Assembly (NCBI GenBank): GCA_038093975.1
Contig: JBBPTG010000232.1
Location: 1-37,719 of the forward strand
DNA: 37,719 nt
Source of the DNA: Chalciporus piperatus
Taxonomy: Eukaryota > Basidiomycota > Agaricomycetes > Boletales > Boletaceae
Reading direction: 5' to 3'
Positions 3,687 through 37,719 of the stretch are shown piece by piece (position 1 is the stretch's first letter; each line of letters begins with the position of its first letter). A program made the position numbers and the translations under genes. Under the pieces are notes generated by a model that saw nothing but the letters and a program-made list of their open reading frames with translations, was not told where the DNA came from and did no database searches.

Positions 3687-4754
3687 TGGTGGGGCGAATT
3701 AAAGAAATCGATGGAAGAACTCGGCTTTAAAAAGATTTACTCAGACGCAGGCATCTATGTCTACAAACACGGCAAAGTCTATGTTGTTGTATATGTTGAT
3801 GACGCCTTCTTTTGTGGTCCCAATAAGCTTGAGATTGATCAACTCAAAGCAAAGTTCATGAAACGATGGGAATGCCGTGATCTCGGTGAGACAAAAGAAT
3901 TCCTCCGCATGAGGATTCGTCGAGACCGACCTAACCGCTTAATCTATGTTGATCAATGCGAGTACCTTGACAAGGTGGTTGAACGGTGCGGTATGCAAGA
4001 TGCCAAACCAGCCCGTACCCCTTTACCTCAGGGATATTATTCGATTAAAAATACACAAGATGTGAACCCAGAGTTACGGACGCGTTTCCAAGTGGTTATC
4101 GGATCCCTACTATATATCATGCTCGGCACACACCCGGACATAGCCTACGCAGTTACACAACTTGCGAGACAATCGGCGAATCCGACACAAGAGCATTTAG
4201 ATAAAGCTCTTTACATCGTGAAGTACCTAAAGGGAACACGAGACTATGCTCTCAAATACGATGGTAAAGGCGGTTCTGGCCTCATAGGTTTTTCAGACTC
4301 TGATCTCGGAGCTGATCCAGAACGAGCACGCTCACAGACAGGATATTTCCTGAAACTTGCGAATGCAGCTTTCATGTGGAACTCGCATCTTCAGAAGAAT
4401 ACAGCGAGAAGTACCACTGAGGCTGAATATATTGCATTGTCTGTTTGCTGCGACCAAATCATTGGTGTAAAGCAAATGTTTGCTGAATTGGGTTATAAAC
4501 TTAAGCCCATTCCACTCTGTGGTGACAATCAGGGATCGATATTTCTCTCCCAGAATCCTGTCAACCAGAAAAACCACAGACATATACGAATTGGATATCA
4601 TATCATTCGTGATGCAATTGAGGAAAAATTTGTTGAACTATACTACATCGAAGGCAATGAAAATCCTGCAGATATCTTTACTAAGAATCTGGGATATATT
4701 AAATTCGAGAAGTTCCGATCCCTCCTCGGTCTAGTAGTTTACTGCGCCGATTAG
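3687..4754 (+). pseudogene. pol: Copia polyprotein, C-terminal part of reverse transcriptase plus RNase H (C1)
   Basis: The frame is open from the G1 boundary to TAG at 4752-4754; the first internal ATG (3711) is not a true start. Seen in order: the end of the palm with VVVYVDDAFF (catalytic YVDD), the thumb, the copia-typical LLYIMLGTHPDIAYAV segment, and an RNase H with FSDSDLGAD, TEAEYIAL and DNQGSI and a terminal ADIFTKNL motif. The expected N-terminal gag, protease and integrase are missing from the window. There is no stop or frameshift inside the visible part, so the only visible break is the G1 insertion. It is more AT-rich than the other copia element at 11-17 kb and belongs to a different lineage. 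Confidence 0.88.
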
Positions 4755-5995: not shown

Positions 5996-6168
5996 AATTT
6001 ATGATGTCTTCTGCTTATGCTTACTACTTTTGTTAGTCTCCTTGGGTGGGCCACAGAAAAGCCTTATTCTAAGTCCCAAAAAGTCGGAATATTGGGACAT
6101 TTAAGGACTCGTAAGTAAAGTGTCTCTGATAAGTGCCACTAAGGATAGATCAGTAAAGTGTGAATTTC

Positions 6169-11087: not shown

Positions 11088-11623
11088 TGTGAAAACTAAA
11101 CGAACTCAGCCGATGCCTAAGAGAGGCGGAAACGACTATATTCATCTAAACGAACTAGGTACAACTCAAATAAGTAAAGGAACTAAGTAAAGAGAGTAAA
11201 TACTCACCTCAGCCGATGCCTAAGAGAGGCGGAAACGACTGAGGTGCTCTGGAAGTGAGACGAGGAATTTAAGTAAATGGGTGGAGATGTGCTCGGAACG
11301 ATCCGACGTGATTCCGGTCCGGAATGACCGATTCCGGGTGCAAAAGGATCAAGCCATGTCAAGGACTTGACATGGATAAGAATAGAAAGGGTGAATGGTG
11401 AACAGAGATGTCACGAAAGGGAATAGACAAGTGAATGACATATAGGAGAACATACGAATGTAAAAGGGATCCGTTCCAACGAATCCGGAGATGTTTCCGT
11501 GCGTTCCGGACATCGGAAACATCAGATTAAACACGGAATGCATCCGGAAGTATCCGGAGACGGATAGGGGCTATCCGGAAGCGGAAAGGAGCGGATAGGC
11601 ACGGATTGGACTATATTTTGACA
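11088..11623 (-). repeat. 3' LTR of C2 (536 bp)
   Basis: Ends TGTGAAAA...TTTTGACA. It contains a near-complete direct repeat of a 33-bp unit (CTCAGCCGATGCCTAAGAGA...) about 100 bp apart, a 20-bp palindrome CATGTCAAGGACTTGACATG at 11355-11374, and six TCCGGA sites. The polyprotein stop codon lies inside it. Confidence 0.93.
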
Positions 11624-14600
11624 CTCCCACTCGAGCGCAATCGTAATCCCATCCCACGAACGAACTTCCAGTGTTGCTCCCTGACAAGAGGCTTGGTAAG
11701 GATGTCGGCGACCATGTCCCCAGTAGGAACATATTGGATAACGGCTTCTCCGGTCGCAACCAAGTCGTCCCGGACGAAGTGGTACTTCCGTTTGATATGC
11801 TTGGTTCGAGCTCGGAACTGAGGATCACGGGAAAGGATGATGGCGGCCTGATTATCGCAGTTGAGCGTTGTTGGGCCCTTCTGAGGATGTCCAATCTCTG
11901 CAAAGAAGGTCCGGAGCCAAGCAAGGTGCTGTCCAGCGAGACTGAGTCCGATGTACTCTGATTCCGTGGTAGACAGTGCGACCATGCTCTGCTGTTTGCT
12001 GGACCAGGAAATGGCACCGCGATTGCTGAGAAACAGGAATCCGGAAGTGGAACGGGAGTTGTCTGGGTCCTGCGACCATCCAGCGTCAGAGTATCCATGG
12101 AAGTCCTGGTCCAAGGACACATCAGTTCCGTCGTACCGAAGTTCCATGTCTGAAGTTGCTCGAATGTAACGGAGGACACGCTTTGCGGCTTCCCAATGGC
12201 ACATCTTGGGTGCGGAACTGTAACGGGCGAGGTGTCCAACAGTGTACGCGATATCCGGACGTGTTCCAAGCATGAGATACATGAGGGACCCGATGACGGT
12301 AAGGTAAGAAACAAGCTTCCCTTCAATCCGGAGTTCCGGAATCGTGGTGTTGTCCTCAGGATCTGTCGCAGAGAGATGTATGCCATGGACCATAGGAGTC
12401 CAGACGGGAGCGGAGTTGGACATTCCAGTTCGCTCTAGAACGGTGCGAGCATACTGGGATTGACTCAAGGAGATGGTGCGGAGTTTCCGGTCGCGACGGA
12501 TTTCGATCCCCAGGATGTACTTGGCTTCTCCAAGGTCGTGCATTTTGAATGCAGCGGAAAGGGCCTCCTTACAGGAGTTGATGAAACCCCTGGAGGTGGC
12601 TGCAAGAAGAAGGTCGTCGACATACACAACAAGGAAACAGACCTGTCCGTCTTTCCGAAGGACGTAAAGGCAGGTCTCTGCGTCGAGTCTGGTGAATCCG
12701 AGTTCTCCAAGCTTTTTGTCCAGGGTTTTGTTCCAAGTACGTCCGGCTTGTTTAAGGCCATATAGGGAGCGTCTGAGTCTCCAACAGCATCCGGAAGGAA
12801 TGGGAACACCGTCCGGAGGTAGGAGGTACAATTCCTCCTCGAGCTCTCCGTTGAGATATGCGGTGGAAACGTCCATTTGATCCAGTTCCAAGTTATGCTT
12901 CGCGGCAAGAGCAATGATGGTCCGGACGGAATCGAGGTTTGCTACGGGAGCGAATACTTCCTGATAGTCAACTCCTTCGCGCTGGGTAAAGCCTCGAGCA
13001 ACAATCCGGACCTTGTATCGTTCGATCATGCCGTTCTGATCGCGTTTGATGCGGAACACGGGCTTGGAAGTGATCGGATTGACTCCGGATGGAATGGGGA
13101 CGGTTTCGTAGACATGGTTGGTGTTTAAGCTGAGGAGTTCCTCCTCGACAGCGGATCTCCACTGGTCTGCGTTAGGACCTGCATATGCTTCCTTGATAGT
13201 GTTAGGAAGGTGTTCTCCCTGGGTTGCGTCAGCGGCTCCTGCAAAGATATGCTCCTGGAGCCTTTCCTGAGAGGCATAGAATGCTCCTGGAATGTCCAAA
13301 TCTGGATCCGGAGCTTCCGCGTTTTCGGAAAGTACTTCCGCAGGGGGTTCCAGTTGTTCCTGTTGGACATCCTGGCGTTCAGCTCGACGTGCAGCTTCCT
13401 CATCAAGGGTGCGCTGGTAGTCTCGATTCCGGTTTGCTGTTTGACGGTTCCGATTGCTCCTTCGAACTCCTGCTACGACTTGTGCAGGAGGTCGTTCCGG
13501 AGATGGACTTCGAACTGGAGCAGGAGGGGCAGGGAGAGGAACAGGAATGGGAATGGGAACGGGAACGGGAGCAGGATGAGGAGCAGGAGCAGGAGCAGGA
13601 GGTTCCGGACCTATGTGGAGTTGACCCAGACGGTCGACGAGATCCTCAACGGAATGATCTGGAGGTATGAGATCGTCTCCCACTGGTCCTGGAAGGGCTG
13701 GAGGTACGGGAATGTTGTCCTCCTCGGATTCCTCAGGTTCCGGCTGATGGAGACGCTGAGGAACAAGTCCCTCCCACTGACCCTCAGCAGGGAGATTTCT
13801 CCAAGGTGCGGAGTCCGCTTCAGAGATGGTTCCGGACTCATTGAAGGTGACATGCCGACTGGAGATGATGGTACGGCGTTCAATATCAAGGAGCTTGTAT
13901 GCCTGTTGCCCATAGGTATATCCAAGCATGATACATTTCCGTCCGTGGCTCCGGAACTTTCCTCCACGCAAATCCTTCGGAATGTGAGCATAGGCAGAAC
14001 ATCCGAAAGGACGGAAGAGGGTCGGATCGACTTTCCGTTTGAAAAGGGTCTGGTAGGGATTCGCTCCTTGGAGCGCGGACGTTGGACTCCTGGATGTAAC
14101 ATAGGCTGCAGTGGCCATAGCGTCAGCCCAGAAGGATTTAGGAAGTTTGGACTCCTCGAGCATGGTATTGGCGAGCGAGGATAGAGTTTGGTTCATCCGT
14201 TCCGCGAGTCCGTTTTGCTCTGGAGTATAAGGAGCAGACATCTCCTGAAGGGTTCCATCTTTCCGGAGTTGGTTCCGGAAGTCCTGTCCGGTGTACTCGC
14301 CACCCCCATCGCTCCTAAGGAACTGGACATGCGCCTCAGACAACTCCTCCTGTTCGACCTCAGCCTTGAAGAAGGCCTTGACGTCTACCTTCCACTGGTT
14401 GTATGTGGCTAGGACATCGCTCTTCTTCTTCAGGAAGTAGATCCAAGGGAAGCGGGAGAAGTCATCGACGATTAGAAGCCAGAACCGGAATCCTTCCCTG
14501 GACTGTGGAGTTATAGGACCTCCGACATCCGTGTGGACCACTTGGAGTGCGTGTGTAGCTCGGGGTCTTTCCAGTAGCTCGAACGGAAGCTTCTTCATCT

Positions 14601-16173
14601 TTCCGAGAACGCAGGACTCACAGAATTCCGGAGTTCCAGAAAGCGTGTCAATCCCTTGGAGTTGACCATGCCTGATCATATGCTGAATCCGGGGGATGGA
14701 GATGTGTCCCATGCGTCGATGGAGGAGGTTGATATCCACAGTGGCATGCGCAGCCTCCGGAGTGAGCATTGGAGTGGCTTCCGCGTGGTACAAACCCTCC
14801 TTGTGTGTTCCAACGATGATGGGAACAGGCCCCTTCCGGATGTGGCAGATGGAGGAGTTCGCAGGAAAGAGGGTGGATAGTCCAGCATTGGACAGGCGAT
14901 GGACGGAGATGAGAGAAATCCGGAAGTCTGGAATGAGAAGGACATTGCTTAGGATGACCTCAAACGTCTTCCCTTTGACAGTGGAGCGAAGTGGAACGGA
15001 TCCAATTCCGATCGCGGAAACGGTGGAGTTGTCTCCGAATGACACGGGACGTGGTGGATGGAGTGGATGGTACGTGCGGAACCAGGAACGGTGCGGAACC
15101 ATGTGGGATGTTGCTCCAGAGTCGATGAGGAGTGAGAAGTCAGCCAGCTTGGGTTCAGACGACAGATAGGCGTGAACACGTTGGATTAGAGACTCAGATA
15201 CACTCTCCTTAGCTACGTTTGCACTTTCCGGAGGTCCGGAACTTTGGTCTGGACGCTCTTCCGTCGCATTAGCCTTTTCCCTTTCCTTTCCCTTTCCCTT
15301 TCCTTTCTGTCCAGGTCCTCCGCCTTCGCGAAGCCTCTCGACCCACTTCTTGTAAGCGAAGCAGTTGGACGAGTCATGTCCATTGGACTGATGGTGCTCA
15401 CACCAGGCGGAGGAGTTTCCAGGAACTCTTCCGGACGCTTTGAGGGCGGAATCAGAAGTTCCGGACGGATTGAGGCGGGATTCCTCGGATAGAACACGAA
15501 GTTCGATGGTGTCGAACGTGAGTTTGTCTTTCTCAACGGTGTTGATGATGGAGGATGTGAACATGGTCCAATCCGGAGTTTTGGGAAGGGAGTTGAGGAG
15601 TGTGAAGGCAAGGAGTTGTGGATCGATGGTGTATTGCATCCCGAGGAGTTGGCGTTGGATGGTCCGGATGGAAGCGACGTGCTCAGAGATGGCAGAGGTG
15701 CCGTTCCAGGCAGTGGAGAAGAGACTGCGGAATGAATGGAAAGCGTCGGAAACGCTAGGAGTTGCATAGAGCTCCAGGAGTTTATCCCAGAGTTCCTGAG
15801 CAGTCAGGATGTTCTCCGTTTGCATCAGGATAACGTCATCCAGGTGGGTTTGGATGATTCCGTGCGCTTTCTCATCTCGTTCCCTCCACTTCCGGATCTC
15901 CTCTGCCGTTGGACCAGTGGTAGAAGGGGTGGTGGTCGTAGCAGGAGTAGGAGTGTTTCCGGATGCGGAAGTGGACGGAGCAACTGCGGGAGTGGCTGTG
16001 CTAGAGGTTCCGGAAACTACGGATAGCGAGGGATCCGGATCCGTTCCTAGTACAACGCCTAGAACCTTTTCGCTTCTGAGGAGGACAGTGATGCGAAGAC
16101 GCCAGGTGGTGAAGTTTCTGGGTCCCATCAAGCGAGGGACTGTGGAAGTCCGGGTGGTAGTATCCGATGTCAT
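11611..16173 (-). CDS. pol: Copia Gag-Pol polyprotein (C2), 1520 residues
   Basis: One uninterrupted frame from ATG 16173 to TAG 11613-11611. In order: a Gag domain (about 1-250); a variant zinc knuckle CEHHQSNGHDSSNC (CX2HX4HX4C, residues 258-271); protease LLIDSGATSH (about 348-357); integrase with an HHCC zinc domain (about 485-521) and catalytic D549, D622 and E658; a long linker with proline-alternating repeats (about 857-886); reverse transcriptase with AYLNGE and YVDD (1184-1187); and RNase H with YSDAGW, STTESEYI and DNQAAI, ending in ADILTKPL. The length is normal for a single-ORF copia element. The products act in cytoplasmic particles and then in integration in the nucleus. The last codons run through the polypurine tract into the LTR. 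No frameshift separates gag and pol. Confidence 0.96.
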   Translation of the reverse strand: MTSDTTTRTSTVPRLMGPRNFTTWRLRITVLLRSEKVLGVVLGTDPDPSLSVVSGTSSTATPAVAPSTSASGNTPTPATTTTPSTTGPTAEEIRKWRERDEKAHGIIQTHLDDVILMQTENILTAQELWDKLLELYATPSVSDAFHSFRSLFSTAWNGTSAISEHVASIRTIQRQLLGMQYTIDPQLLAFTLLNSLPKTPDWTMFTSSIINTVEKDKLTFDTIELRVLSEESRLNPSGTSDSALKASGRVPGNSSAWCEHHQSNGHDSSNCFAYKKWVERLREGGGPGQKGKGKGKEREKANATEERPDQSSGPPESANVAKESVSESLIQRVHAYLSSEPKLADFSLLIDSGATSHMVPHRSWFRTYHPLHPPRPVSFGDNSTVSAIGIGSVPLRSTVKGKTFEVILSNVLLIPDFRISLISVHRLSNAGLSTLFPANSSICHIRKGPVPIIVGTHKEGLYHAEATPMLTPEAAHATVDINLLHRRMGHISIPRIQHMIRHGQLQGIDTLSGTPEFCESCVLGKMKKLPFELLERPRATHALQVVHTDVGGPITPQSREGFRFWLLIVDDFSRFPWIYFLKKKSDVLATYNQWKVDVKAFFKAEVEQEELSEAHVQFLRSDGGGEYTGQDFRNQLRKDGTLQEMSAPYTPEQNGLAERMNQTLSSLANTMLEESKLPKSFWADAMATAAYVTSRSPTSALQGANPYQTLFKRKVDPTLFRPFGCSAYAHIPKDLRGGKFRSHGRKCIMLGYTYGQQAYKLLDIERRTIISSRHVTFNESGTISEADSAPWRNLPAEGQWEGLVPQRLHQPEPEESEEDNIPVPPALPGPVGDDLIPPDHSVEDLVDRLGQLHIGPEPPAPAPAPHPAPVPVPIPIPVPLPAPPAPVRSPSPERPPAQVVAGVRRSNRNRQTANRNRDYQRTLDEEAARRAERQDVQQEQLEPPAEVLSENAEAPDPDLDIPGAFYASQERLQEHIFAGAADATQGEHLPNTIKEAYAGPNADQWRSAVEEELLSLNTNHVYETVPIPSGVNPITSKPVFRIKRDQNGMIERYKVRIVARGFTQREGVDYQEVFAPVANLDSVRTIIALAAKHNLELDQMDVSTAYLNGELEEELYLLPPDGVPIPSGCCWRLRRSLYGLKQAGRTWNKTLDKKLGELGFTRLDAETCLYVLRKDGQVCFLVVYVDDLLLAATSRGFINSCKEALSAAFKMHDLGEAKYILGIEIRRDRKLRTISLSQSQYARTVLERTGMSNSAPVWTPMVHGIHLSATDPEDNTTIPELRIEGKLVSYLTVIGSLMYLMLGTRPDIAYTVGHLARYSSAPKMCHWEAAKRVLRYIRATSDMELRYDGTDVSLDQDFHGYSDAGWSQDPDNSRSTSGFLFLSNRGAISWSSKQQSMVALSTTESEYIGLSLAGQHLAWLRTFFAEIGHPQKGPTTLNCDNQAAIILSRDPQFRARTKHIKRKYHFVRDDLVATGEAVIQYVPTGDMVADILTKPLVREQHWKFVRGMGLRLRSSGSVKI
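11624..11632 (-). promoter_or_regulatory. Polypurine tract of C2
   Basis: GAGTGGGAG in sense direction directly before the LTR start TGTCAAAA; it also encodes the last residues of the polyprotein. Confidence 0.7.
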
Positions 16174-16393
16174 GATTATGACAGGTGACAGATGACAGGT
16201 GACAAGACAGTTTGATCGACAGGTGACAGGAGATGGTTCCTATGTCGGAGTGATCTGAGGATGTCTAGAACGGTCCGGAAACGGGCCGGAAGGGCGCGGA
16301 AAATTGCGCGAGAGTGGATAGAGTCAAGGGACTCGGAGTCGTTGGGCAAGAGGACCGTTTGCTGCTAATGGGCGCTAGCCAGGGCTCATAACC
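16174..16393 (-). other. 5' untranslated leader of C2
   Basis: 220 bp between LTR and ATG. It contains direct repeats of GACAGGTGACAG-type units next to the ATG (16185-16230). No ORF is seen in it. Confidence 0.6.
16378..16393 (-). promoter_or_regulatory. Primer binding site of C2 for a half initiator-Met tRNA
   Basis: The plus strand reads CAGGGCTCATAACC directly at the LTR edge. This is the anticodon arm of eukaryotic initiator tRNA-Met (anticodon CAT, loop CTCATAA, stem GGG/CCC). The primer would be a tRNA cut in the anticodon region, as known for Drosophila copia, rather than the tRNA 3' end. Confidence 0.75.
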
Positions 16394-16929
16394 TGTGAAA
16401 ACTAAACGAACTCAGCCGATGCCTAAGAGAGGCGGAAACGACTATATTCACCTAAACGAACTAGGTACAACTCAAATAAGTAAAGGAACTAAGTAAAGAG
16501 AGTAAATACTCACCTCAGCCGATGCCTAAGAGAGGCGGAAACGACTGAGGTGCTCTGGAAGTGAGACGAGGAATTTAAGTAAATGGGTGGAGATGTGCTC
16601 GGAACGATCCGACGTGATTCCGGTCCGGAATGACCGATTCCGGGTGCAAAAGGATCAAGCCATGTCAAGGACTTGACATGGATAAGAATAGAAAGGGTGA
16701 ATGGTGAACAGAGATGTCACGAAAGGGAATAGACAAGTGAATGACATATAGGAGAACATACGAATGTAAAAGGGATCCGTTCCAACGAATCCGGAGATGT
16801 TTCCGTGCGTTCCGGACATCGGAAACATCGGATTAAACACGGAATGCATCCGGAAGTATCCGGAGACGGATAGGGGCTATCCGGAAGCGGAAAGGAGCGG
16901 ATAAGCACGGATTGGACTATATTTTGACA
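16394..16929 (-). repeat. 5' LTR of C2 (536 bp)
   Basis: Same as the left LTR except for three substitutions. It carries the second copy of the 20-bp palindrome at 16661-16680. Confidence 0.93.
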
Positions 16930-16943
16930 GGAAGTTCGGTCCG

Positions 16944-17374
16944 TGTTACGAACGCTCAGTTCCTTATCCTAGTCTTTCCTAGACTTCACTACGCTTACTA
17001 CGTTTCTCTTTCACTTTTGGACTTAGTCGCTTTCTTTCCCTTTTCTGTTATCTTATCTTATCAAGATCACATCACGTGACCTGCTGACATCAGCTAGGTC
17101 TAGCCTTTCGCTTACGTAATGTGGCTGTGCGTGGCTGTGCATCTTCCCCACTGTCCATGACTCATACCGAGTCACCATGACTCAGACTCTTATTGACTCA
17201 TTATGACTCACCGTGACTCATACTGACTCACGCTGACTCATCTCGCTTCCTAGTCATATACGCTATTGGCTGTTACTCGCCATGACTCATATCTAGTCAT
17301 ACCTAGTTATATAGTTAAGGTTTACTAGTCATATAGTTAAGATTTAGTCACAACATGTACAAACACTGTCAATA
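16944..17374 (+). repeat. Ty3-type LTR (family G2), first part, split by an inverted-repeat element
   Basis: Starts TGTTACG, the same end as the G1 LTR and as the start of the G3 LTR. It continues at 20240-20433, where TATATAAACCC and the end CGTTTCA lie; the rejoined LTR is about 625 bp. It contains CACGTGAC and an array of TGACTCA motifs upstream of the TATA box. Confidence 0.65.
17158..17289 (+). promoter_or_regulatory. Array of eight TGACTCA motifs (bZIP/AP-1/Gcn4-like sites)
   Basis: TGACTCA starts at 17158, 17178, 17194, 17204, 17214, 17224, 17234 and 17283. Five of them are spaced exactly 10 bp, one helical turn. TGACTCA is the known site of Gcn4/AP-1-type bZIP factors. The array lies about 140 bp upstream of the TATA box once the inserted element is removed, so it may be the LTR's upstream activating region. 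Confidence 0.6.
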
Positions 17375-20237: not shown

Positions 20238-20239
20238 TA

Positions 20240-20433
20240 GTATATAAACCCGGGTTGACAAGCACTGGCTCTCCAGTCTTGTTCTCCTGGAGTTTCCTCT
20301 TCTTGAACTTCATGGGCCAAGCGCTCCTGCTTGCCTAGTCTGATCCTCAGCTCTAGTTACTGAGTTGATGTGGTTCCACTAGGGCATGTTGTCTGATGAT
20401 AGCGCTAGCTCTTGATTGAGTTGAGTCGTTTCA
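20240..20433 (+). repeat. Ty3-type LTR (family G2), second part
   Basis: Begins at the TATA box TATATAAACCC (20241) and ends CGTTTCA, which is also the sense-strand end of the G3 LTR. Confidence 0.6.
20241..20285 (+). promoter_or_regulatory. TATA box and predicted mRNA 5' end/self-primer of G2
   Basis: TATATAAA at 20241; AGTCTTGTTCT at 20275-20285, 34 nt downstream, is the exact complement of AGAACAAGACT at 20436-20446, 2 nt inside the LTR end. Confidence 0.6.
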
Positions 20434-22576: not shown

Positions 22577-23604
22577 GATTGTCAAGATCACATGAAACTC
22601 CTACTTCCATCGAGTATCGAGAAGGCCGATCGGGCCAAAGAACCATAGAGTTCCTCTGTGGGTTCACCGTAGGGTTTGGTTCTCCGTAGGGTTTGTCTGG
22701 AATCCAAACCAAAGAGAGGAGGTAGTGGAATGGTAGTGACACGATGAAGTGTTGCGGGAATGCACACGAAGATGTGTTACCAATGAACACCAATGGAACG
22801 TGAAGTGACACAAGGAACACAAAGTGTTATGGCAATAACACAAGTGTTACGACAGGTGTTACGACAAGTGACACACTATGAACACGCTAGTGTGAAGAGT
22901 ACAAGAGAGTACCAAGGGTACGAACGATAATGGTGTTAACCATAATCATTTTCTTCGCTCAAAAATCTCTTTCTCTCGCCCAAATTCCAAGCTGCAGTCG
23001 CTTGAAGAACCCAAATCTCTACCGAGAACGCGCATTTCTGAGGATTTCACAATCTTCACGCTCATCACCACTCGCTTTAGCACTCGCTGCTGCAATTCTC
23101 ATTGACACACTCGAGAAACGTGTTGATACAATCCAAGGAAACCTTTCTTACAAGGTTAGAACCTTACACAATCGCAAATCTGATTGGTCGGAACGCTATA
23201 CGCTTGAAGCTTCCATATCCCATGACGAACACAAGGTGAATTACATCGTTGATTCATGCTTACAAGGTCAAAACCTGAAATGCCTTGCGCATTGAAAGCT
23301 ATGCGAAATCTGATCGCACGTGAAAACCAAGGTCTATTCTTGACATTGCACTGGATGCAATTAGAATTTCCCACGCTACACATCCGTCCACCCTGCGCTT
23401 ACACAGCATGACTCAGAATTCTATTCGAGTCACAATTACAACTGCATGACAGTCGATCGAGTCAGACTGACGATGAAAATATCGACTGATTGGAAATCGT
23501 GCCGAGAACCGAAAAGGTATAAAGAGTGATGTTTTACGCTCTTGCTCTCCATTGACATCCATCATTGAAACAATCATCACAATGAACTCACACGCCTTCG
23601 CCGC
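22566..23604 (+). repeat. Possible polypurine tract and LTR fragment
   Basis: A run of T followed by ACTGGGGGGAT and then TGTCAAGATCACATG looks like a polypurine tract and LTR start (about 22577). A TATA-like GGTATAAAGAG lies near 23515. The stretch is cut at 23605 by the G3 LTR. No second copy and no LTR end are visible, so the assignment is weak. Confidence 0.3.
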
Positions 23605-24121
23605 TGAAACGACCCAAAACTCGTATTGAGATCAGGTCTACACTATCGCCAAGTGAAGCGGTTTAGAAGAAGAGAGTGGAGAACAACTGAGATAGGACGG
23701 TTGAGTCTTGGGGAAAGACCAAGTGAACTAAGCTGGGGTTACCAGCAGTTCCTTGGGGTTTATATACTATCCTAAGTGTTTGTACATGTTTGTACTAACT
23801 ATAACTAAATAAGGAGTTACCCTGAACCCATGAGAATAGAAGCGAGATAAGGAGGCTGTGAGGCATAGCCGAGATAGCGGAGATTAAGTACATGAGGTGA
23901 AAGGCTGTGGCATAGCCATGCGCAGCACGGAGATTAACTGTCAAGGTAAGGCAGTGCGTGAGAATGAATATAACCATAATGGGCGACCGTGCGAAGAGTG
24001 AAAGTGAATGAGCACGTGTCTGAAAGATAAGATGAGAGAGATTAGATAAGATCGAATGGAACGAAACGTTGAAGTTCAAAAAGTGTCTGTGAAGGTGAGA
24101 GAACCGTAATGAACCGTAACA
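23605..24121 (-). repeat. 3' LTR of G3 (517 bp)
   Basis: Sense ends TGTTACGG...CGTTTCA. It differs from the other LTR by roughly a dozen changes. Confidence 0.92.
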
Positions 24122-24706: not shown

Positions 24707-27700
24707 TTATGTGGGCGCAGCCCGTGTTTTTAATGGACTGGACAGGTTTGCCATGAGTCTATCAATTTTGGCTGGTCCGTTGTCCGTGAGATTTTCTGGA
24801 CGTTTCTGGAATAAGAATAGGAATTTCGCAGGGTCAATGGATAGAGCACGAGGTGCGGCTGGATTCTTTTCGTAGAAGTCCTTCAAGCAACCTTTGGCAT
24901 TTGCCAAATTAGCTCTTGGTTCCCAAGTGCGATCGGTTTCATCATAACCTTTCCAGTGCACGAGGTATTCCAGTTTCTTTCCCTTGTACCGTGTGTCAAC
25001 AACGTAGTCGACTTCCCATTCGTTGTCTCGTTCTTCCGTAACAAGGACTGGTCCAGGCCGTGCTGTAGGCTGGCCATCAAGGCGGTCCTTGTAAGGTTTG
25101 ATTCGACGGACATTAACCACAGGGTGGATTCGAATGTCACGTGGAAGCTGTAGTTTTACTGCATTTGGCCCTGCCAAGGCGATGATTTTAAATGGACCTA
25201 GCCATCTTTCGGACAATTTGTCTGATGCGCGTGTCAAACGCAAGTCTGTGGTTGACAGCATGACTTGCTGTCCAATTTCATATTCGGGCGCAGCCGAGCG
25301 GTGTTTATCGGCTAGCGATTTCATGCGTTCCTGGGCCTTGGCCAGGTTCTTTTCTACCTCAGCAAGCGTTTTCCGCATTGCGTCTGTGAATGATTTGGCA
25401 GCTGGTGCCTGAGAAGTAGAAGCATGTGGTTCTGTGCCCATGCGTGGTTCATATGAGCGTGTGACTTCGAACGGCGATTTCTTTGTTGAAGTATGATACT
25501 TGTTATTAATAGAGAACTGGGCGATGGCTAGCCAGTCTGCCCATTGGTTTTGTTTATCGAAGCAGTAGATTCGTAAAAACTTTCCAACTTCTTTGTTTAC
25601 GATTTCTGATTGTCCGTCTGTCTGCGGATGGAATGCTGTACTGAGCTTGGTATCAATACCAAGAGCATTATTGATTTCTTTAGCGACTTGCGCCGCGAAC
25701 TGCGGGCCTCGATCTGATGTAATGGATAAAGGAAGTCCATGATGCTTCCATACGTGAGAAAGGAATAGGCGAGCGGTTTCCAGGGCCGAACACGTTTTTG
25801 TGCATGGTATGAGTTCGACTTCTTTCGAGAAGCGATCTACCACCGTTAAGATTGCATTAAAACCACGTGATTCGGGTAAACCCGTAATGAAATCCGCAGT
25901 GATGTGTTGCCAGGGTCCCCTAGGGACCGGTAAAGGTTGGAGAAGACCTGCAGGTGCCTGATTCGTTCCTTTGAATCTCTGACAGGTCTGGCAGTGGGAC
26001 ACGTAATCTTTTACGAGGGTGGCGAGTCCAGGCCACATGTAAGATCGTTGAATGAGTTCTAACGTTTTCTCGTAACCGGGGTGTCCTGCAGCCGGTGTGT
26101 CGTGGTGTAAGCGAATGATGTCCATTCGGAGTGTGTTATCTTCCGGGATGTACATCCGATCTTCTTCGTCGTAGAGTAAGCCATCAAGCTTCTCATGAAT
26201 GCCCTTCTTCTGGAACTTCTGGACTTCTGTCTCAGATAGCTTGCACGTTGCAAGGAAGACTCTTTTCTTGATCCGTGCCCCTTCGTCTGTCAGGGCGACT
26301 GTGCGGATATTCTCGGGAGCAATGACCAATATTCCTTTATTGTCATTTTCAACTCCGACGGCGTGGTCTTCTCGACGTGAGAGAGCGTCAGCTTTTGCCA
26401 TAGAAGGTCCAGGTTTGTAAACCCAGAGCATATTGAATCTAGATAGATATTGCGCCCAGCGCGCTTGTCGTCGGTTGAGATCCTGTCTCGTCATGAACCA
26501 CTGCAGGTTTGCGTGGTCGTTCCAGATCTCAAACTGGTGTTTAGCACCTTCTAGATAATGTCGCCATTGCTCTAGTGCCTGAATGACTGAGAGCATTTCT
26601 TTATCGGCGATAGGATAATTCCGTTCTTGCGGAGTCATGGAATGAGATGAATAGGCAACCGGGTGCCATTTGTCTTCTTTCAGAATAGATAAGACTGCGC
26701 CTGTTGCGTAATTAGATGCATCGCATTCTAAGCGGAATTGACAAGTGCTATCAGGGAAGGCGAGTATGGGGGCTGAGGTGAAACTCTTTTTCAGCGTATC
26801 AAACGCTATTTGACATTTGTCATCCCATATGAAGGCTTGTTCCTTTTTGGTTAGGTCATTGAGAGGACGTGCTACTTGCGCATAGTCTTGAATGAACCTT
26901 CGATAGAAGTTTGCTAAACCTAGGAAGCTTCTTACGCCTTTGACGTTCTTCGGCTCTGGCCATTCCAGTATGGCGGTGACTTTTGATTGATCCATTTTTA
27001 TCCCATCTTTTCCTACGATCATTCCAAGGAATTCAACCTCAGATACGCGGAAATTGCATTTTTCGGGTTTTACGAATAGATCGTTTTCTTCCAGTCTGCG
27101 AAGAACTTCAAGCACGATTTTGTTGTGTTCTGCCTGACTTTCTGTTTTGGTAAAGATCATCAAATCGTCTATGTAGACGACGAGCACGTCTTCCATGTCT
27201 GCGAAGATCTCGTTCATCATTGCTTGGAATGTGCCGGGGGAGTTACAGAGACCGAAGTACATGACTCGGGGTTCGAAAGAACCACGGAAGCAAACGAAGG
27301 CGGCCTTCCATTCATCGCCTTCTTTGATGCGAACGTTGTTGTATCCCCATCTGAGATCCATCTTGGTGAATAATTTAGCTCCTTTGAGCTTGTCAACGAG
27401 TTGGCCGATCAACGGCAATGGATAGTTATTTTTGACCGTGTGTTCGTTTAGGTATCGGTAGTCCTGTACCATGCGTTTTCGTCCATCCTTTTTAGGGACA
27501 AAGAAGACTGGTGACGTTTGGGGGGATTTAGAAGGCGCGATGTAGCCCTTTTTGAGCTGATCATCGATGAAGTCGCTGACTTCCTTCTGTTCTGTCTCCG
27601 AAAGTGGTATCAGTCTACCCTTTTTAGGTTTGAACGTCTCTTTTACATCAATAGCGTGATCCCACGGCTTGCGTAAGGGCATGCGCTCCGATTCTCCTTT

Positions 27701-28537
27701 TGAGAACACCTTGAGGAATTTATGGTACTCTTTTGGGACCATTTCCTCCACGGTCTTTTCCTTTTCTTTGGGAACTTGCGCGTCAAGCGCATGGATAGCG
27801 GAGTATGCAGAATACTGGGAATCTCGTTCCTGGTGATCTGGATCTTGGATATCTAGATTTGGCCTTTCCTGGAGTAGGGCACACGTGTGTGGGCAACGAG
27901 TCATTTTGACCGTTCCCTTACTCCAGTTAATGTCCGGATTATGACGTTTCAGCCATAAGAACCCGAGTATGAAGGCGTTCTTGCCAAGATCTGTGACTTC
28001 CGCAGTGATTTCTTCGCGATGTCCTTCGTAATCTAGCACTAGCTCGGCTGAGTGCGTAATAGAACCAGCGGAATTTCTTGTTCCGTCCACGTTGTAAACG
28101 GGAATTGCATGACGTAACTTTGTCAAGGGAATGTGATGTGATTTCGCCCACTGGCGGTCTATGAATATGGCATTTGCTCCTGAGTCAAGGAGTGCCGTAA
28201 GAGGAATGAATGTCCGACTTGTTTCAGGACGAATCTTGATTGCGAGAAGTATTTCGCGTTCCGGCGCGAACGAGCGCACGAAAGCATTGTCTGGGATTTG
28301 TGTGGGGGAGGGAGAAATAGAGGAATTAAGCACCCGTGTAACGCCCGGGCCGAGCCCATCAAGGGACTCCTCTGTCGGCAAAGTAATATTGGAAACTAAT
28401 GTGTCATCCGCATCATCATCGGCGGAGTTTTCTATTTCTAGTGGTCCGTAGCGAGATCCTCTCACACACCCAGATGCGTGTGAAAGGGGTTTCAGTTTTC
28501 CGATTTGTCGGTAAGGGTGCTGTAATCCTGGAACCAA
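24707..28537 (-). CDS. pol: Pol polyprotein of G3: protease, reverse transcriptase, RNase H, integrase, chromodomain
   Basis: 1276 open codons, counted from the first non-ATG start-like codon of the frame; the true product should be a Gag-Pol fusion by -1 frameshifting, because pol overlaps gag (28492-28537). Motifs: protease LLDSGANAIF (residues 117-126), LGFLWL (191-196), reverse transcriptase with VVYIDDLMIF (YIDD 455-458), RNase H (CDASNYATGAVLS, DKEMLSVIQAL, NDHANLQWF), integrase zinc domain (HHDTPAAGH ... CQTCQ) and catalytic D, D, E in ITADF, TSDRGPQF and GQSEIVNKE. Near the C terminus is a chromodomain (EYLVHWKGYDETDRTWEP), which targets integration to marked chromatin. No stop or frameshift inside. 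About 28% of the length after the integrase core belongs to the C-terminal extension and tail. Confidence 0.96.
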   Translation of the reverse strand: MVPGLQHPYRQIGKLKPLSHASGCVRGSRYGPLEIENSADDDADDTLVSNITLPTEESLDGLGPGVTRVLNSSISPSPTQIPDNAFVRSFAPEREILLAIKIRPETSRTFIPLTALLDSGANAIFIDRQWAKSHHIPLTKLRHAIPVYNVDGTRNSAGSITHSAELVLDYEGHREEITAEVTDLGKNAFILGFLWLKRHNPDINWSKGTVKMTRCPHTCALLQERPNLDIQDPDHQERDSQYSAYSAIHALDAQVPKEKEKTVEEMVPKEYHKFLKVFSKGESERMPLRKPWDHAIDVKETFKPKKGRLIPLSETEQKEVSDFIDDQLKKGYIAPSKSPQTSPVFFVPKKDGRKRMVQDYRYLNEHTVKNNYPLPLIGQLVDKLKGAKLFTKMDLRWGYNNVRIKEGDEWKAAFVCFRGSFEPRVMYFGLCNSPGTFQAMMNEIFADMEDVLVVYIDDLMIFTKTESQAEHNKIVLEVLRRLEENDLFVKPEKCNFRVSEVEFLGMIVGKDGIKMDQSKVTAILEWPEPKNVKGVRSFLGLANFYRRFIQDYAQVARPLNDLTKKEQAFIWDDKCQIAFDTLKKSFTSAPILAFPDSTCQFRLECDASNYATGAVLSILKEDKWHPVAYSSHSMTPQERNYPIADKEMLSVIQALEQWRHYLEGAKHQFEIWNDHANLQWFMTRQDLNRRQARWAQYLSRFNMLWVYKPGPSMAKADALSRREDHAVGVENDNKGILVIAPENIRTVALTDEGARIKKRVFLATCKLSETEVQKFQKKGIHEKLDGLLYDEEDRMYIPEDNTLRMDIIRLHHDTPAAGHPGYEKTLELIQRSYMWPGLATLVKDYVSHCQTCQRFKGTNQAPAGLLQPLPVPRGPWQHITADFITGLPESRGFNAILTVVDRFSKEVELIPCTKTCSALETARLFLSHVWKHHGLPLSITSDRGPQFAAQVAKEINNALGIDTKLSTAFHPQTDGQSEIVNKEVGKFLRIYCFDKQNQWADWLAIAQFSINNKYHTSTKKSPFEVTRSYEPRMGTEPHASTSQAPAAKSFTDAMRKTLAEVEKNLAKAQERMKSLADKHRSAAPEYEIGQQVMLSTTDLRLTRASDKLSERWLGPFKIIALAGPNAVKLQLPRDIRIHPVVNVRRIKPYKDRLDGQPTARPGPVLVTEERDNEWEVDYVVDTRYKGKKLEYLVHWKGYDETDRTWEPRANLANAKGCLKDFYEKNPAAPRALSIDPAKFLFLFQKRPENLTDNGPAKIDRLMANLSSPLKTRAAPT

Positions 28538-29679
28538 GCCTTTGCTTCTTCCACACCCATGCCTCGGGTAGCTCGTACCCAGTCCATTTCTTTTCCTTTG
28601 CCCTTGTTTGGCTTAGGAGTTTCGGTGCTTTTATCCTCATCCCAGGAGGTATGCTCTTCTGTGAAGCGAACATTTCTTGGTGTTTTGTACTTTTTGCACA
28701 CACGTTTGTGCTCTCCTCTAGACCAGCCGCATTCTGGGCATTTGGTCTTGGGTTCCTTGCAGTCTCTGACGAAGTGGTCCTTGCCACAGTTGAAGCATTT
28801 GGGCTTCCTGTCTCCGTTTGGTTTCTTAGTTTGGACGGCGTCAACGTCCATTGCGTTAGGGTCACGGCGTGAGATTCTGTCTGCCGTGCCTGCCTTGATG
28901 TATGAGAATAACTCTTTCCTGTTACAGCGGGCGCGGATTGCTTCAACGAAGGTTTCGTAATTGTCATATCTTCCCACGTTCTCAAGTAGGAATTTGACTG
29001 ATTCCTGATCCGCATTCTTTTCTAGGATTTCGATGTGACGTTCATTATCCCATCCATCCATCGCTTTGTGGATCTCGAATTTGGTTATGAAACTAGCGAA
29101 TTTCATATCGTGCTGTTTCAGACCCATGATCATCTTGCGATGATATTCTTGTTCGTTTGATGAACGGAACCTATCCGTCATCATCTTCTCGAAGTCATTC
29201 CAAGTATGGGTTGTTCCATCTAAGATCTGTGCCATGGTGGCACGTGCGAAGTCTCCGGCGTCCCCGCCTTTCATTCGGCTAAGGGTTGCCTTTATTCCGG
29301 CCATCCCGGCAAGTACTCTGATGTTTTCCGCTCGCCAGGAGCGTACTCTCATCCACCATTCTTCAAACTTTTTGCCTTTGGACCCGTCATAGTCTCCTGG
29401 GTCAGCTACGATTTTTGATAGCCTTGGTTCGGCTGGTGGTACAGCTCCTCCTGGAGCTGGGGGTGCTGGCGTATTAAGAATCGCCCTGATCTGATCTGTT
29501 GCTTGATCGAGATCATCTCGTAATGTCTGATTTCTGAGTCTTTCATCTCGTAATGAATCTGTTTGGAATTCTAAGAAGAGCCTGAGGTGCGCTCCTAGAG
29601 CGGCTAAGTCCTGATTGTGATTCTGAGCGAGAGCGGAAAGGCTTGCTGCAAGTTCTGCTGGGAGTGCAGTCTGTGACAT
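28492..29679 (-). CDS. gag: Gag protein of G3 (395 residues)
   Basis: ATG 29679 is the first ATG on the predicted mRNA. The N-terminal 80 residues are predicted helical with heptad-like leucines (coiled coil). The capsid region follows (FEEWWMRVRSW, WNDFEKMMTDRF). Two zinc motifs are seen near the C terminus: CFNCGKDHFVRDC (CX2CX3HX4C) and CPECGWSRGEHKRVC (CX2CX6HX3C). It ends at TGA 28494-28492 and overlaps pol in the -1 frame. The sense sequence before the stop, TCGGAAAACTGA, is a weaker slip candidate than in G1. Role: particle formation and RNA packaging. Confidence 0.93.
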   Translation of the reverse strand: MSQTALPAELAASLSALAQNHNQDLAALGAHLRLFLEFQTDSLRDERLRNQTLRDDLDQATDQIRAILNTPAPPAPGGAVPPAEPRLSKIVADPGDYDGSKGKKFEEWWMRVRSWRAENIRVLAGMAGIKATLSRMKGGDAGDFARATMAQILDGTTHTWNDFEKMMTDRFRSSNEQEYHRKMIMGLKQHDMKFASFITKFEIHKAMDGWDNERHIEILEKNADQESVKFLLENVGRYDNYETFVEAIRARCNRKELFSYIKAGTADRISRRDPNAMDVDAVQTKKPNGDRKPKCFNCGKDHFVRDCKEPKTKCPECGWSRGEHKRVCKKYKTPRNVRFTEEHTSWDEDKSTETPKPNKGKGKEMDWVRATRGMGVEEAKAWFQDYSTLTDKSEN

Positions 29680-29687
29680 TGTTACTA

Positions 29688-30476
29688 CTAATACTTGTAG
29701 CGAGGTTGGGGAAGCTTGGGGTGCTTGGCACGTAGGACTATTCTAGAGATCTTTTCAGGATCGTTTATGTTTCCTACTTCTGTGCGTATGATCTTTCTCC
29801 GGAAGGCGGCGGGGATCTTTATCTTTCTGATCGGCCTAGCCGGGATTACTCTCTCTGGTCCTGTGATGACGTCTCTCTGTCTCTTTGGGGTTCTAACCTC
29901 TTCGTCAAACTCTTCGAGTCTCCTTTTGACGCTAGAGGTAGCGGATGCGGTTTTCGGCAACGAGGGTGCCTTCTCTGACAACCCACGTGGTACGACTAAT
30001 GGGGATGGAGCGGGGAGTGGGATCGAGGGGGCGATAGGCGTCTGGTCGTTGGGGTCGAACTCTTCGCTGATGAGTGACTCTTGGCTGACCGACGCTGGTC
30101 TGTCGAAGTCTCCGAGTATCCCGTCGAATAGCAGCCCCTGGGCGTATGCTATCGACGCGTCGTGGTAGGTTGCGTAACCTCCGTCTGAGTTCTTTCCAAA
30201 GTAGAACTGCTCTGGCTCTAATGCCGTGAGCGCTTTCAGCGTCCTGCTGAATGGTGAGAGGAGTCTAGCGGGTTCTTCTTCACCCACTGGGATCCGTGCG
30301 TCTGCAGCGGCCTCCGGCTCTGTCTCAACTATGGTCGGGATCGCGGTGACCCGTCCGTGCCTAGCTACTACTGAGGCTACGTAAGGATGGTCTAGGTTCT
30401 CGGCTTGCGAGTACCTCCCGGACCGGAAAGGGAGAAGAGTGGCGTGAAAAGATGGGAAGTACACTACGAGGTCTCG
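29688..30476 (-). CDS. ORF0: 258-codon open frame without methionine, upstream of gag in G3
   Basis: The frame opens after TAA at 30479-30477 and closes at TAG 29690-29688, followed in frame by TAG and TAA; gag ATG starts 2 nt later. There is no ATG inside, so translation would need a non-AUG start (a CTC-GTA-GTG stretch lies at its beginning) or entry by frameshift or splicing. The predicted product has an N-terminal part with FHATLLPFRSGRYSQ, a middle region rich in P, S and E, a bipartite nuclear-localisation-like pattern (KRRLEEF ... TPKRQRD) and a basic C terminus (RRKIIRTEVGN ... RAKHPKLPQPRYKY). No known domain is recognised. Gag follows in another frame. The alternative is a non-translated leader that happens to be open. 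Confidence 0.5.
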   Translation of the reverse strand, partial: RDLVVYFPSFHATLLPFRSGRYSQAENLDHPYVASVVARHGRVTAIPTIVETEPEAAADARIPVGEEEPARLLSPFSRTLKALTALEPEQFYFGKNSDGGYATYHDASIAYAQGLLFDGILGDFDRPASVSQESLISEEFDPNDQTPIAPSIPLPAPSPLVVPRGLSEKAPSLPKTASATSSVKRRLEEFDEEVRTPKRQRDVITGPERVIPARPIRKIKIPAAFRRKIIRTEVGNINDPEKISRIVLRAKHPKLPQPRYKY

Positions 30477-30564
30477 TTAACGTAGGTACTTGAGCGAGAG
30501 ATTGTCCACGCACTTGCGACGCGATGAAGCGGTGGAGAACGATAGCGTAGAGGTGATAAAATGA

Positions 30565-30575
30565 AGCTTAGTTCA
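30565..30575 (-). promoter_or_regulatory. Self-complementary primer binding site of G3
   Basis: Sense TGAACTAAGCT, 2 nt inside the 5' LTR end, is the exact complement of AGCTTAGTTCA at 30707-30697, the predicted mRNA 5' end, 32 nt downstream of the TATA box start. Confidence 0.75.
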
Positions 30576-30577
30576 AG

Positions 30578-31095
30578 TGAAACGACCCAAAACTCGTATT
30601 GAGATCAGGTCTACACTATCGCCAAGTGAAGCGGTTTAGAAGAAGAGAATGGAGAACAACTGAGATAGGACGGTTGAGTCTTGGGGAAAGACCAAGTGAA
30701 CTAAGCTGGGGTTACCAGCAGTTCCTTGGGGTTTATATACTATCCTATGTGTTTGTACATGTTTGTATGTACTATAACTAAATAAGGAGTTACCCTGAAC
30801 CCATGAGAATAGAAGCGAGATAAGGAGGCTGTGAGGCATAGCCGAGATAGCGGAAATGAAGTACATGAGGTGAAAGGCTGTGGCATAGCCATGCGCAGCA
30901 CGGAGATTAACTGTCAAAGTAAGGCAGTGCGTGAGAATGAAATGTAACCATAAGGGGCGACCGTGCGAAGAGTGAAAGTGAATGAGCACGTGTCTGAAAG
31001 ATAAGATGAGAGAGATTAGATAAGATCGAATGGAACGAAACGTTGAAGTCCGAAAAGTGTCTGTGAAGGTGAGAGAACCGTAATGAACCGTAACA
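30578..31095 (-). repeat. 5' LTR of G3 (518 bp)
   Basis: Sense ends TGTTACGG...CGTTTCA. It holds the promoter used for the element transcript. Confidence 0.92.
30732..30739 (-). promoter_or_regulatory. TATA box of G3 LTR (TATATAAA)
   Basis: Sense TATATAAACCCC; the distance to the self-primer sequence is 32 nt, the same as in G1. Confidence 0.7.
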
Positions 31096-31521
31096 CCTAC
31101 CTTGAAGAAATTCATGCAAGAGCATGGTACCCACACCAAAGTTGCTGTTGTCCAAGTTGACGAGGCTGGGCCAAATGACACCGCCAGGTTCTATGACGAT
31201 GCCGTTGACCAAGCTGGCCAGTTCTGAGTGGGAACTAGGAGTCGTACAGGTTGGAAGCATTGCTCGAGGGCTGCACATTTTTTGATCGTTTTCCTGTACT
31301 CCTCGGCTATACATTGTGTGTTTAGGAAATGAATGACTGGATGCTTTATGAGAATGCGGGAAGACATTTTAGTTCTCAAGAATGAGGATGGCAGTAAGTC
31401 GTATGTACTACCACCGCTTAAATTGACCGCGACTCGAGCAAAGGACGGGCTGGGGTTGACAGTCTGAAAAACGCAATCATACGACGATCGGGCCCGGCTA
31501 AGCTTCGAATTAATAAACACG
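31096..31521 (-). pseudogene. Unidentified coding-like fragment between G3 and the Plavaka element
   Basis: Two minus-strand stretches look coding but lie in different frames: about 31345-31245 (QCIAEEYRKTIKKCAALEQC) and about 31260-31098 (SELASLVNGIVIEPGGVIWP, then LDNSNFGVGTMLLHEFLQG). The second is cut by the G3 LTR at 31095. No family was recognised. It may be the remnant of a gene destroyed by the insertion; the rest is not found at the other end of G3. Confidence 0.3.
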
Positions 31522-36121: not shown

Positions 36122-37079
36122 TCATTGAGTGACGCGTACAATGTACGGCGTTCAAGGCTACTTACCGATTGGTCCCAGGCCCACTGACCAGACATGAGGT
36201 CACATACTTCTCGTTCTCCATTCTCATCGACGACTAATTTCGCTGCATAATCGATTTCGTCAGCATAGTCGGCATTGTCCAGTTGTTGCTCCAGGATGGT
36301 CTTAGGATCATGAAATCATACATTGTACTCTGCATCCATCCATGCTGGTGGGTCCTCCGGCATCAGACCTCCATATTTGACTGAGAACGACTGCCAAGGG
36401 CAGTCACCGTGCGCGATCGCATCAATAGTACTGTAAAGATCGTCGTGGGATTGAAATGGCGGCCCAAGATCGGGTCCGGGGTACATTGCTGCCAGGATAT
36501 CCATGAGGCGGTCAATTTTTCCCGCCGACATTTGAACACTCTTGTACAGGAATTCGGCCATCTCAAATTCCCCTCGACTGTTATAAGGGGACCAATCATC
36601 AATGGCGGCAAAGACACGAGGAGGAGGAGGAGTGTTTGGAGGTAGCATGTGTCCTTGCTCATCACAAGGGCTACCTTCAAGTGATCAGGTAATACTATGT
36701 CAGTTTGCGACACCATGTGATATGAATGAAAAAAAACAAACCGCTAAGTAATGGATGGTGGTCAATATGGCGCCGACCAGGTTGGCGTGGATTGGCGAGC
36801 GGGTTGGGGGGATCTACGTCCATATAGATGTCGTCATTTGGGGGAGGAGATGGATAACGCGGGTGGTTTGGCAGGCGCACATTCTCGACATTGAGGTTAT
36901 CTAGTGGCAAGTGCCGTTGATGTGCCAGTGGGTGAATGCATGCATGGCGCTTCAAGCCTCCGCGGCTCGAGCATGCTTTGCCACACCCGGCGCGGCCACA
37001 GATAAAAACCTTGGGGTGATAGGGACGGCGTGGTCGAGCTCGGTCGGGCATTCCTAACTTGAAGATAGAGAGACGATGC

Positions 37080-37719
37080 ATTGAGCCTCAATGCGTAGGA
37101 ATGGGCCGATGCATTGAGGCTCAATGTGTAGGGATGGGCCGATGGGTTGAGCCTCAATGCGTAGGAATGGGCCGATGCATTGAGCCTCAATGCGTAGGGA
37201 TGGGCCGATGCAATCAGTGTCAATGCGTAGGAATGGGCCGATGGGTTGAGCCTCAATGTGTAGGGATGGGCCGATGGGTTGAGCCTCAATGCGTAGGAAT
37301 GGGCCGATGCATTGAGCCTCAATGCGTAGGGATGGGCGGATGCAATCAGTGTCAATGCGTAGGAATGGGCCGATGGGTTGAGGCTCAATGTGTAGGGATG
37401 GGCCGATGCATTGAGCCTCAATGCGTAGGAATGGGCCGATGCATTGAGGCTCAATGTGTAGGGATGGGCCGATGGGTTGAGCCTCAATGCGTAGGAATGG
37501 GCCGATGCATTGAGGCTCAATGCGTAGGAATGGGCCGATGCATTGAGGCTCAATGCGTAGGAATGGGCCGATGCATTGAGGCTCAATGTGTAGGGATGGG
37601 CCGATGGGTTGAGCCTCAATGCGTAGGAATGGGCCGATGCATTGAGCCTCAATGCGCAGGGATGGGCGGATGCAATCAGTGTCAATGCGTAGGAATGGGC
37701 CGATGGGTTGAGCCTCAAT
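37080..37719. repeat. 33-bp tandem minisatellite, running off the right edge
   Basis: About 19 units of GATG(C/G)(A/G)TTGAGSCTCAATG... with GCGTAGGAATGGGCC. Most contain the palindrome CATTGAG-C-CTCAATG; some units carry CAATCAGTGTCAATG instead. As 33 is a multiple of three, one minus-strand frame is open and reads an 11-residue repeat (ALRLNPSAHSY-like). It starts 29 bp upstream of the Plavaka ATG. The frame is regarded as a by-product of the repeat. Confidence 0.9.

Follow-up and report, generated by a model that had tools for sequence, protein, structure and literature searches.

The window (the whole stretch of DNA analysed here, 37,719 nt) is contig C232 of a 35.5-Mb assembly, and every copy counted below comes from the same single genome. 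Matches to the Zn2Cys6 domain (PF00172) in 19 places, each above the family cut-off, point to a fungus. The minus strand of the window carries G3, a Ty3/gypsy chromovirus whose pol contains the Pfam domains RVT_1, RT_RNaseH, rve and Chromo in that order, as expected of a chromovirus. The two LTRs of G3 are 97.3% identical. The parts of the element, and the evidence on which each was placed, are listed below.

30578..31095, minus strand: 5′ LTR (TGTTACGG...GTTTCA), from the LTR pair, with edges from copy comparison and sequence
30732..30739, minus strand: TATA box TATATAAA, from sequence
30697..30707, minus strand: predicted RNA 5′ end and 11-nt self-primer AGCTTAGTTCA, the exact reverse complement of the primer site
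30565..30575, minus strand: primer-binding site (PBS) TGAACTAAGCT, 2 nt past the LTR
29680..30707, minus strand: leader with AUG in no sense frame, from ATG counts, copies and shuffles
29691..30476, minus strand: ORF0, an ATG-less frame of 262 codons from stop to stop, basic, without a Pfam, PHROG or PDB match
30462..30464, minus strand: candidate non-AUG start codon GTG of ORF0, the first near-cognate of the frame, with G at −3
29682..29690, minus strand: tandem stops TAG TAG TAA closing ORF0, 2 nt ahead of the gag ATG, from sequence
28492..29679, minus strand: gag, 395 aa, beginning at the first AUG of the predicted RNA (context ACAATGT), with a Retrotrans_gag match and a weak zf-CCHC match
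24707..28537, minus strand: pol, with a weak protease match followed by reverse transcriptase (RT), RNase H, integrase and chromodomain, from Pfam
23605..24121, minus strand: 3′ LTR, from the LTR pair, with edges from copy comparison

The flanks of G3 (GCCGC at 23600-23604 and CCTAC at 31096-31100) do not form a matching target-site duplication. Despite this, both LTRs are present and the gag and pol frames are open, and G3 may be a recombinant insertion. The window also holds other repeats. Positions 1-1349 and 6297-7645 are 85% identical to each other, and a Ty3-type RT/RNase H region (6139-7590) goes with the second of these stretches; the two look like element copies and not like an LTR pair. 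A copia RT fragment is found at 3711-4754. Positions 16944-17324 and 20238-20433 match a family B-like solo LTR (L091), with about 2.9 kb of other sequence between them, and adjoin an open-frame copia element at 11088-16929 with LTRs that are 99.4% identical. At 36942-37719, an array of 33-bp repeats within a minus-strand open frame corresponds to an 11-residue protein repeat, and contains 15 copies of a 300-nt reference in register (64-100%).

An RNA start at 30707 is predicted because R opens with 11 nt that form an exact reverse complement to the 11-nt site 2 nt past the LTR. The same relation is found in three families, namely the G3 family (A), a sister family (B) and a third family (C, in which the LTR edge was read by analogy), and the letters of the self-primer differ among them (AGCTTAGTTCA in A, AGTCTTGTTCT in B and AGTCTAATCCA in C). 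All three families therefore have the 11-nt match between predicted RNA 5′ end and PBS beside the LTR that is typical of Tf1/sushi elements. In Tf1, the first 11 bases of the RNA pair with the PBS, according to the available text of PMC7175516, and Tj1 is cited for the same kind of comparison between RNA start and primer site in that of PMC4600332. In G3, TATATAAA begins about 30 nt upstream of the predicted start, and a TATATAAA-type motif is also found about 30 nt before the predicted start in B (from L073:1124 on) and C (from L076:1720 on). A transcription start had previously been predicted at this position on other grounds; the exact complementarity supports that assignment, which is still a prediction.

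Absence of AUG from the leader

The original prediction stated that no sense AUG occurs in the kilobase before gag, and the counts bear this out: in 29680-30707 the sense (minus) strand has 0 ATGs and the antisense strand 16. The sense-ATG-free run spans 29680-30757 and exceeds every other ATG-free run on the two strands of the window, the second longest being 681 nt from start to start. Of the limits that had been proposed for this zone, the gag ATG stands; the other was placed at the predicted RNA start, and the run in fact begins about 50 nt upstream of it, with the next sense ATG (30760-30758) lying upstream of the TATA box. The proposed expectation of about 16 ATGs was too high, as base composition predicts 12.6 in the 1027-nt leader and dinucleotide shuffles predict 4.3. 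The conclusion of depletion still holds, with zero ATG reached in 2 of 1000 dinucleotide shuffles of the G3 leader.

Family A was represented by 35 rows (the window and 34 copies, fragments included). The leader is without ATG in 26 rows and has one to three in the other nine, such that no A copy examined has more than three. Among the 23 rows that have a complete leader and the gag ATG, 18 lack leader ATGs, and the 23 leaders together contain 7 sense and 327 antisense ATGs.

Family B was found by a gag search; its gag is about 50% identical and its RT 82% identical to those of the G3 family. The leader of the B copy L073 extends for 1537 nt without ATG, from beside the predicted start to gag. 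Zero ATGs are found in 14 of the 17 alignable B leaders (1493-1554 nt) and one or two in the other three. Two B copies have 0 ATG against 10.8 and 12.7 expected, a result reached by 0 of 1000 dinucleotide shuffles in either case. On the opposite strand of the A and B leaders, ATG is not depleted. The B-type copies that are rich in ATG are decayed, or carry their ATGs in inserted or replaced stretches. For example, L078 has an internal deletion and retains the B leader from position 809 only, with its pre-gag ATGs upstream of that point, and the pre-gag ATGs of L091 belong to a copia LTR match and to a solo LTR with CCACC repeats at its flanks; both copies were left out of the B alignment. L115, L116 and L119 are decayed or rearranged relatives with many ATGs and no continuous leader, and were read but left unaligned. 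Among older copies, L117, which lies at a p-distance of 0.144 from L073 and keeps both frames intact, has 0 leader ATGs; in L118 (0.178) and L114 (0.208), whose frames are broken, the count is 8 in each case.

In family C (L076 and L077), the L076 leader contains 1 ATG against 10.5 expected and has no long leader ORF. The two copies differ by 21 substitutions that show no clear phasing, and a third coding leader is not claimed. Because family C is poor in AUG and lacks a long leader ORF, avoidance of AUG may predate the leader genes.

Probable coding frames in the leaders of families A and B

The ORF0 frame is under purifying selection. The distinct substitutions between the window and the other 34 rows comprise 107 synonymous (62.8 expected), 96 replacement (138.6 expected) and 3 stop changes (4.6 expected), and N/S is 0.41 in the ORF0 frame, whereas the two alternative frames give 1.45 and 1.38. 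Of 40 match rows, 23 retain the whole ORF0 frame free of stops. Six-base insertions in two family A copies preserve it; frame-breaking indels occur in L014, L027, L031 and L039. The first TAG after ORF0 is invariant in the aligned rows that cover it. The leader of family B contains two frames of this kind:

L073:1402-2364: ORF1, 321 codons, ATG-less
L073:1904-2653: ORF2, 250 codons, ATG-less, in a different frame from ORF1

The two frames overlap by about 460 nt, and 41 nt separate the ORF2 stop from gag in L073. Both are under purifying selection: N/S is 0.35 in the part of the leader that belongs to ORF1 alone and 0.19 in the part that belongs to ORF2 alone, and the variable codon position switches from one part to the other. 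Over 1492-1866 (L073 positions), ORF1 shows synonymous change mostly at 2.6-5 times expectation; the ratio is 0.6-1.4 over 1897-2226, inside the overlap, and rises again to 1.6-2.7 over 2212-2361. The ORF2 replacement ratio is 1.3-1.4 over 2219-2323, which corresponds to the hydrophobic part of the protein, so that constraint on ORF2 is not detected in that segment. Whole and stop-free frames were found in 49 of 85 match rows for ORF2 and 45 of 89 for ORF1. Three of the 17 B leaders (L081, L086 and L088) have a broken ORF1, and L081 a broken ORF2 as well, yet all three have 0 ATG. In the diverged relative L091, ORF2 can be traced as pieces at 36% and 43% identity and the end of ORF1 at 42%, the PPPY motif included.

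The first 241 nt of the B leader (L073:1161-1401) are its least variable part, with 20 distinct substitutions; the ORF1-only part has 200 in 502 nt. This low variability suggests a structured or packaging element.

Antisense coding was considered as the source of the codon phasing and rejected, as the antisense frame that shares the wobble position contains 6, 19 and 9 stops opposite A ORF0, B ORF1 and B ORF2, respectively. The antisense frame of A ORF0 keeps a 155-codon open run, and the sense phasing continues outside that run. The leader appears to encode extra, previously unrecognised protein, one in family A and two in family B.

ORF0 and ORF1 are basic (pI 9.2 and 9.6), with clusters that we take to resemble bipartite nuclear signals. 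In ORF2, two hydrophobic stretches are combined with an acidic C-terminal tail and a PPPY sequence, presumably a motif of the WW-domain/Nedd4 type, features that suggest a membrane adaptor. No match to A ORF0, B ORF1 or B ORF2 was found in Pfam or PHROG, none to A ORF0 or B ORF2 (the two that were run) in PDB, and no homologue of A ORF0 or B ORF1 (the two searched) in a set of 5.8 billion proteins. A gag search of proteins returned three relatives at 41-45% identity, and a search of viral contigs with the RT region gave no match. A single-sequence structure model of ORF0 was uninformative (pLDDT 41). ORF0 has no detectable relation to either B ORF1 or ORF2; the AUG-free state is common to families A and B, and the leader proteins are not.

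Selection against AUG and candidate start codons

The leader proteins are almost devoid of Met. When the count is confined to frames without stops or frame-breaking length changes (23 of 35 A rows; 15 and 17 of 20 B rows), Met accounts for 2 of 5938 residues in A ORF0 (23 copies), 1 of 4737 in B ORF1 (15 copies) and 0 of 4063 past the candidate start in B ORF2 (17 copies), or 3 of 14,738 residues over the three frames. The proteins read from the window (29691-30464), L073:1402-2364 and L073:1937-2653 contain neither Met nor Cys; Cys is present in other ORF0 and ORF1 copies and absent from the 17 intact ORF2 copies. Out-of-frame ATGs are missing as well. Synonymous shuffles that preserve the protein predict 3.9 in B ORF1 and 2.7 in B ORF2, where none is found (zero is reached in 0.5% and 1.4% of shuffles), and 1.4 in A ORF0, where the observed 0 is not significant alone. 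In the controls, gag has 16 out-of-frame ATGs against 15.8 expected and pol has 48 against 45.4.

Recent substitutions carry a weaker signal. In a test of mutational opportunity, gain of ATG was depleted by about half at most or not at all: distinct ATG-creating substitutions number 5 against 9.6 expected in intact A copies, 8 against 11.4 in all A copies, 8 against 15.5 in B and 10 against 10.4 in a B subset; the U3 control gives 7 against 6.3. Over B positions 1345-2039 (37 rows), ATG arose at 5 of the 10 CpG sites that a single transition would turn into ATG, and at none of the 73 other near-cognate sites; one further ATG (1669 in L092) is at a position where L073 has no near-cognate.

The leader frames of A and B must start without AUG, because a stop codon closes each of them upstream. 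In A ORF0 the first near-cognate codon is the GTG at 30464, with G at −3, followed by AGG, AGG and ATC. TAA GTG opens B ORF1 in each of the 37 rows, as well as in L117, L118 and L114, the base at −3 being U. The candidate start of ORF2, GTG at 1937, has A at −3 and is located where synonymous change in ORF1 drops (about 1850-1940); other near-cognates precede it, including a TTG that all 37 rows share. At codon 1937, 34 rows have GTG and the remaining three (L087, L098 and L100) have ATG; these three are identical over 711 nt and have different flanks. The different flanks indicate three separate insertions, apparently of a recently mobile lineage, and an AUG at exactly this codon is therefore compatible with transposition. 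Every other ATG in this stretch is confined to one copy. As codon 1937 is a CpG site, mutation alone could explain how ATG appeared there, though not how it spread. In most eukaryotes GUG is a poor initiator; we regard the odds that it is the start codon of the leader frames as about even.

Proposed translation of the leader and comparison with known systems

It is probable, in our assessment, that the RNA of these chromoviruses has an AUG-free coding leader through which ribosomes reach gag by leaky scanning, with a minority of near-cognate starts producing accessory proteins. The RNA would be polycistronic. Most ribosomes would scan through the leader to the gag AUG, the first they encounter, and a minority would start at a near-cognate codon heading each leader frame, the likeliest being GUG 30464 for G3 ORF0, GUG L073:1402 for ORF1 and GUG L073:1937 for ORF2. 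Family A would make a single accessory protein in this way and family B a pair from overlapping frames, and the ribosomes that leak past these starts would translate gag-pol. An AUG inside the leader, whether in frame or not, would intercept gag-bound ribosomes, which would explain why AUG has been purged even from a leader that is coding and why its proteins are almost Met-free. Since in-frame and out-of-frame AUGs are both avoided, gag-bound ribosomes would have to cross the leader without translating it. Leaky scanning is preferred because neither reinitiation nor internal entry would require the avoidance of in-frame AUG. A more specific proposal is that this clade makes up to two accessory proteins from GUGs on a leaky-scanned tri-cistronic RNA with 1.0-1.5 kb purged of AUG, and that B ORF2 is a membrane-anchored PPxY protein with an envelope-like or ubiquitin-ligase-adaptor function. 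This proposal is tentative, with a chance of being correct that we place slightly below even; we know of no such function in elements of this type.

Several other routes to gag were weighed. Ribosomes that had translated ORF0 might terminate and reinitiate at the gag AUG, 2 nt past three tandem stops, an arrangement in keeping with the tight spacing of stop and gag in family A and with the stop/start coupling of non-LTR elements and caliciviruses that is described in the available text of PMC5902531. An in-frame AUG in ORF0 would be harmless to such ribosomes, yet Met is almost missing, and in L073 of family B the gap from the ORF2 stop to gag is 41 nt, making this route unlikely. The supposition that scanning alone matters, with AUG purged so that gag comes first and the frames arising by chance or as by-products of RNA structure, would account for the AUG-poor leader of family C, which has no long ORF; we consider it less likely again, given the codon-phased constraint in A and B, the phase switch between ORF1 and ORF2, the traces of both frames in L091 and the stops in the antisense frame that shares the wobble position. 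The original prediction offered a scanned leader or a coding leader, and the two readings appear to be true together. The absence of both in-frame and out-of-frame AUG, the AUG-poor family C and the 8 ATGs in each of two old decayed copies, against none in a comparably old intact one, support the first, and a 262-codon ATG-less frame under purifying selection, together with the two such frames of the sister family, supports the second.

Internal entry or a ribosome shunt to gag, with the leader ORF translated from another RNA, could make use of a structured element in the conserved first 241 nt of the B leader. This is less likely still, as entry at gag has no need of an AUG-free leader, and a shunt of the pararetrovirus type is at variance with the lack of an AUG uORF in the window copy and most B copies. 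Removal of the leader by splicing, or creation of an AUG for the leader ORF by splicing or editing, seems very improbable. Loose consensus introns are present in B L073, and one in C L076, but the intron pattern scanned for is absent from the A leader, no splice-made AUG was found in A, B or C, and 16 of 17 rows have lost the B acceptor closest to the start of ORF1. A spliced leader had been named as one of two findings that would undo the original prediction, the other being further copies with many leader ATGs; the A copies examined have three at most, and the B-type copies with many are decayed or carry them in inserted or replaced stretches. Chance or base composition is scarcely credible; dinucleotide composition does cut the expectation in A from 12.6 to 4.3, and against this stand the comparison of the zero counts in A and two B copies with shuffles, the undepleted opposite strand and the 8 ATGs in each of the old decayed copies.

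Leaky scanning through an AUG-free coding leader, our preferred reading, has implications for annotation, as gene finders and transposon annotation that rely on ATG would easily miss genes such as the leader frames. The roughly 70 places with whole leader frames (23 for A, 49 for B ORF2) constitute a natural system for studying selection against AUG along a scanned RNA, and the frames themselves are a testable case of non-AUG initiation in fungi. If they are translated, leaky scanning in the style of rice tungro bacilliform virus (RTBV) would extend to fungal LTR retrotransposons.

Known elements share some of these features. Like Tf1/sushi chromoviruses, G3 has the order RT, RNase H, integrase and chromodomain and an 11-nt stretch at the predicted RNA start that is complementary to its primer site. 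It differs, as does the sister family, in having separate, overlapping gag and pol frames and a coding leader of 1.0-1.5 kb, neither of which Tf1 reportedly has. In murine leukaemia virus, glyco-Gag starts at a CUG upstream of gag and is an in-frame N-terminal extension of Gag. ORF0 resembles it in that its candidate start, upstream of gag on the genomic RNA, is a codon other than AUG, and differs in being a separate protein in another frame. Plant Retrosat2, RIRE3 and RIRE8 (ORF0) and Tat elements have an ORF upstream of gag; the available descriptions, by which they are set apart from A and B, mention no AUG-free ORF, non-AUG start or overlapping pair. An additional ORF without a known function is drawn in a survey of fungal Gypsy elements (PMC2864245); the available text gives neither its position nor its start codon, the term "start codon" being absent from that text. 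Judged by titles and the openings of abstracts, none of the open papers found by searches on such elements describes an AUG-free coding leader of an LTR retrotransposon.

The closest parallel is with RTBV and badnaviruses, which, like the A and B leaders, have long ORFs without internal AUG ahead of the main ORF. Members of the Caulimoviridae are not known to have an LTR or integrase and carry a virus gene set; G3 has both LTRs and integrase, and the likeness is one of working and not of membership. According to the available text of PMC5902531, the start codon of RTBV ORF I is AUU, and a lack of AUG in ORFs I and II aids scanning over about 900 nt. In the leader frames, no AUG is available for the first ORF, and a conserved GTG is its candidate start. 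The uORF- and hairpin-driven shunt of RTBV appears to have no counterpart here: the window copy and 14 of the 17 B leaders lack an AUG uORF. The setting also differs, being the RNA of a fungal LTR retrotransposon, with 1.0-1.5 kb free of AUG, candidate GUG starts and ORFs that precede gag. On the preferred reading, G3 would work like RTBV in a new setting.
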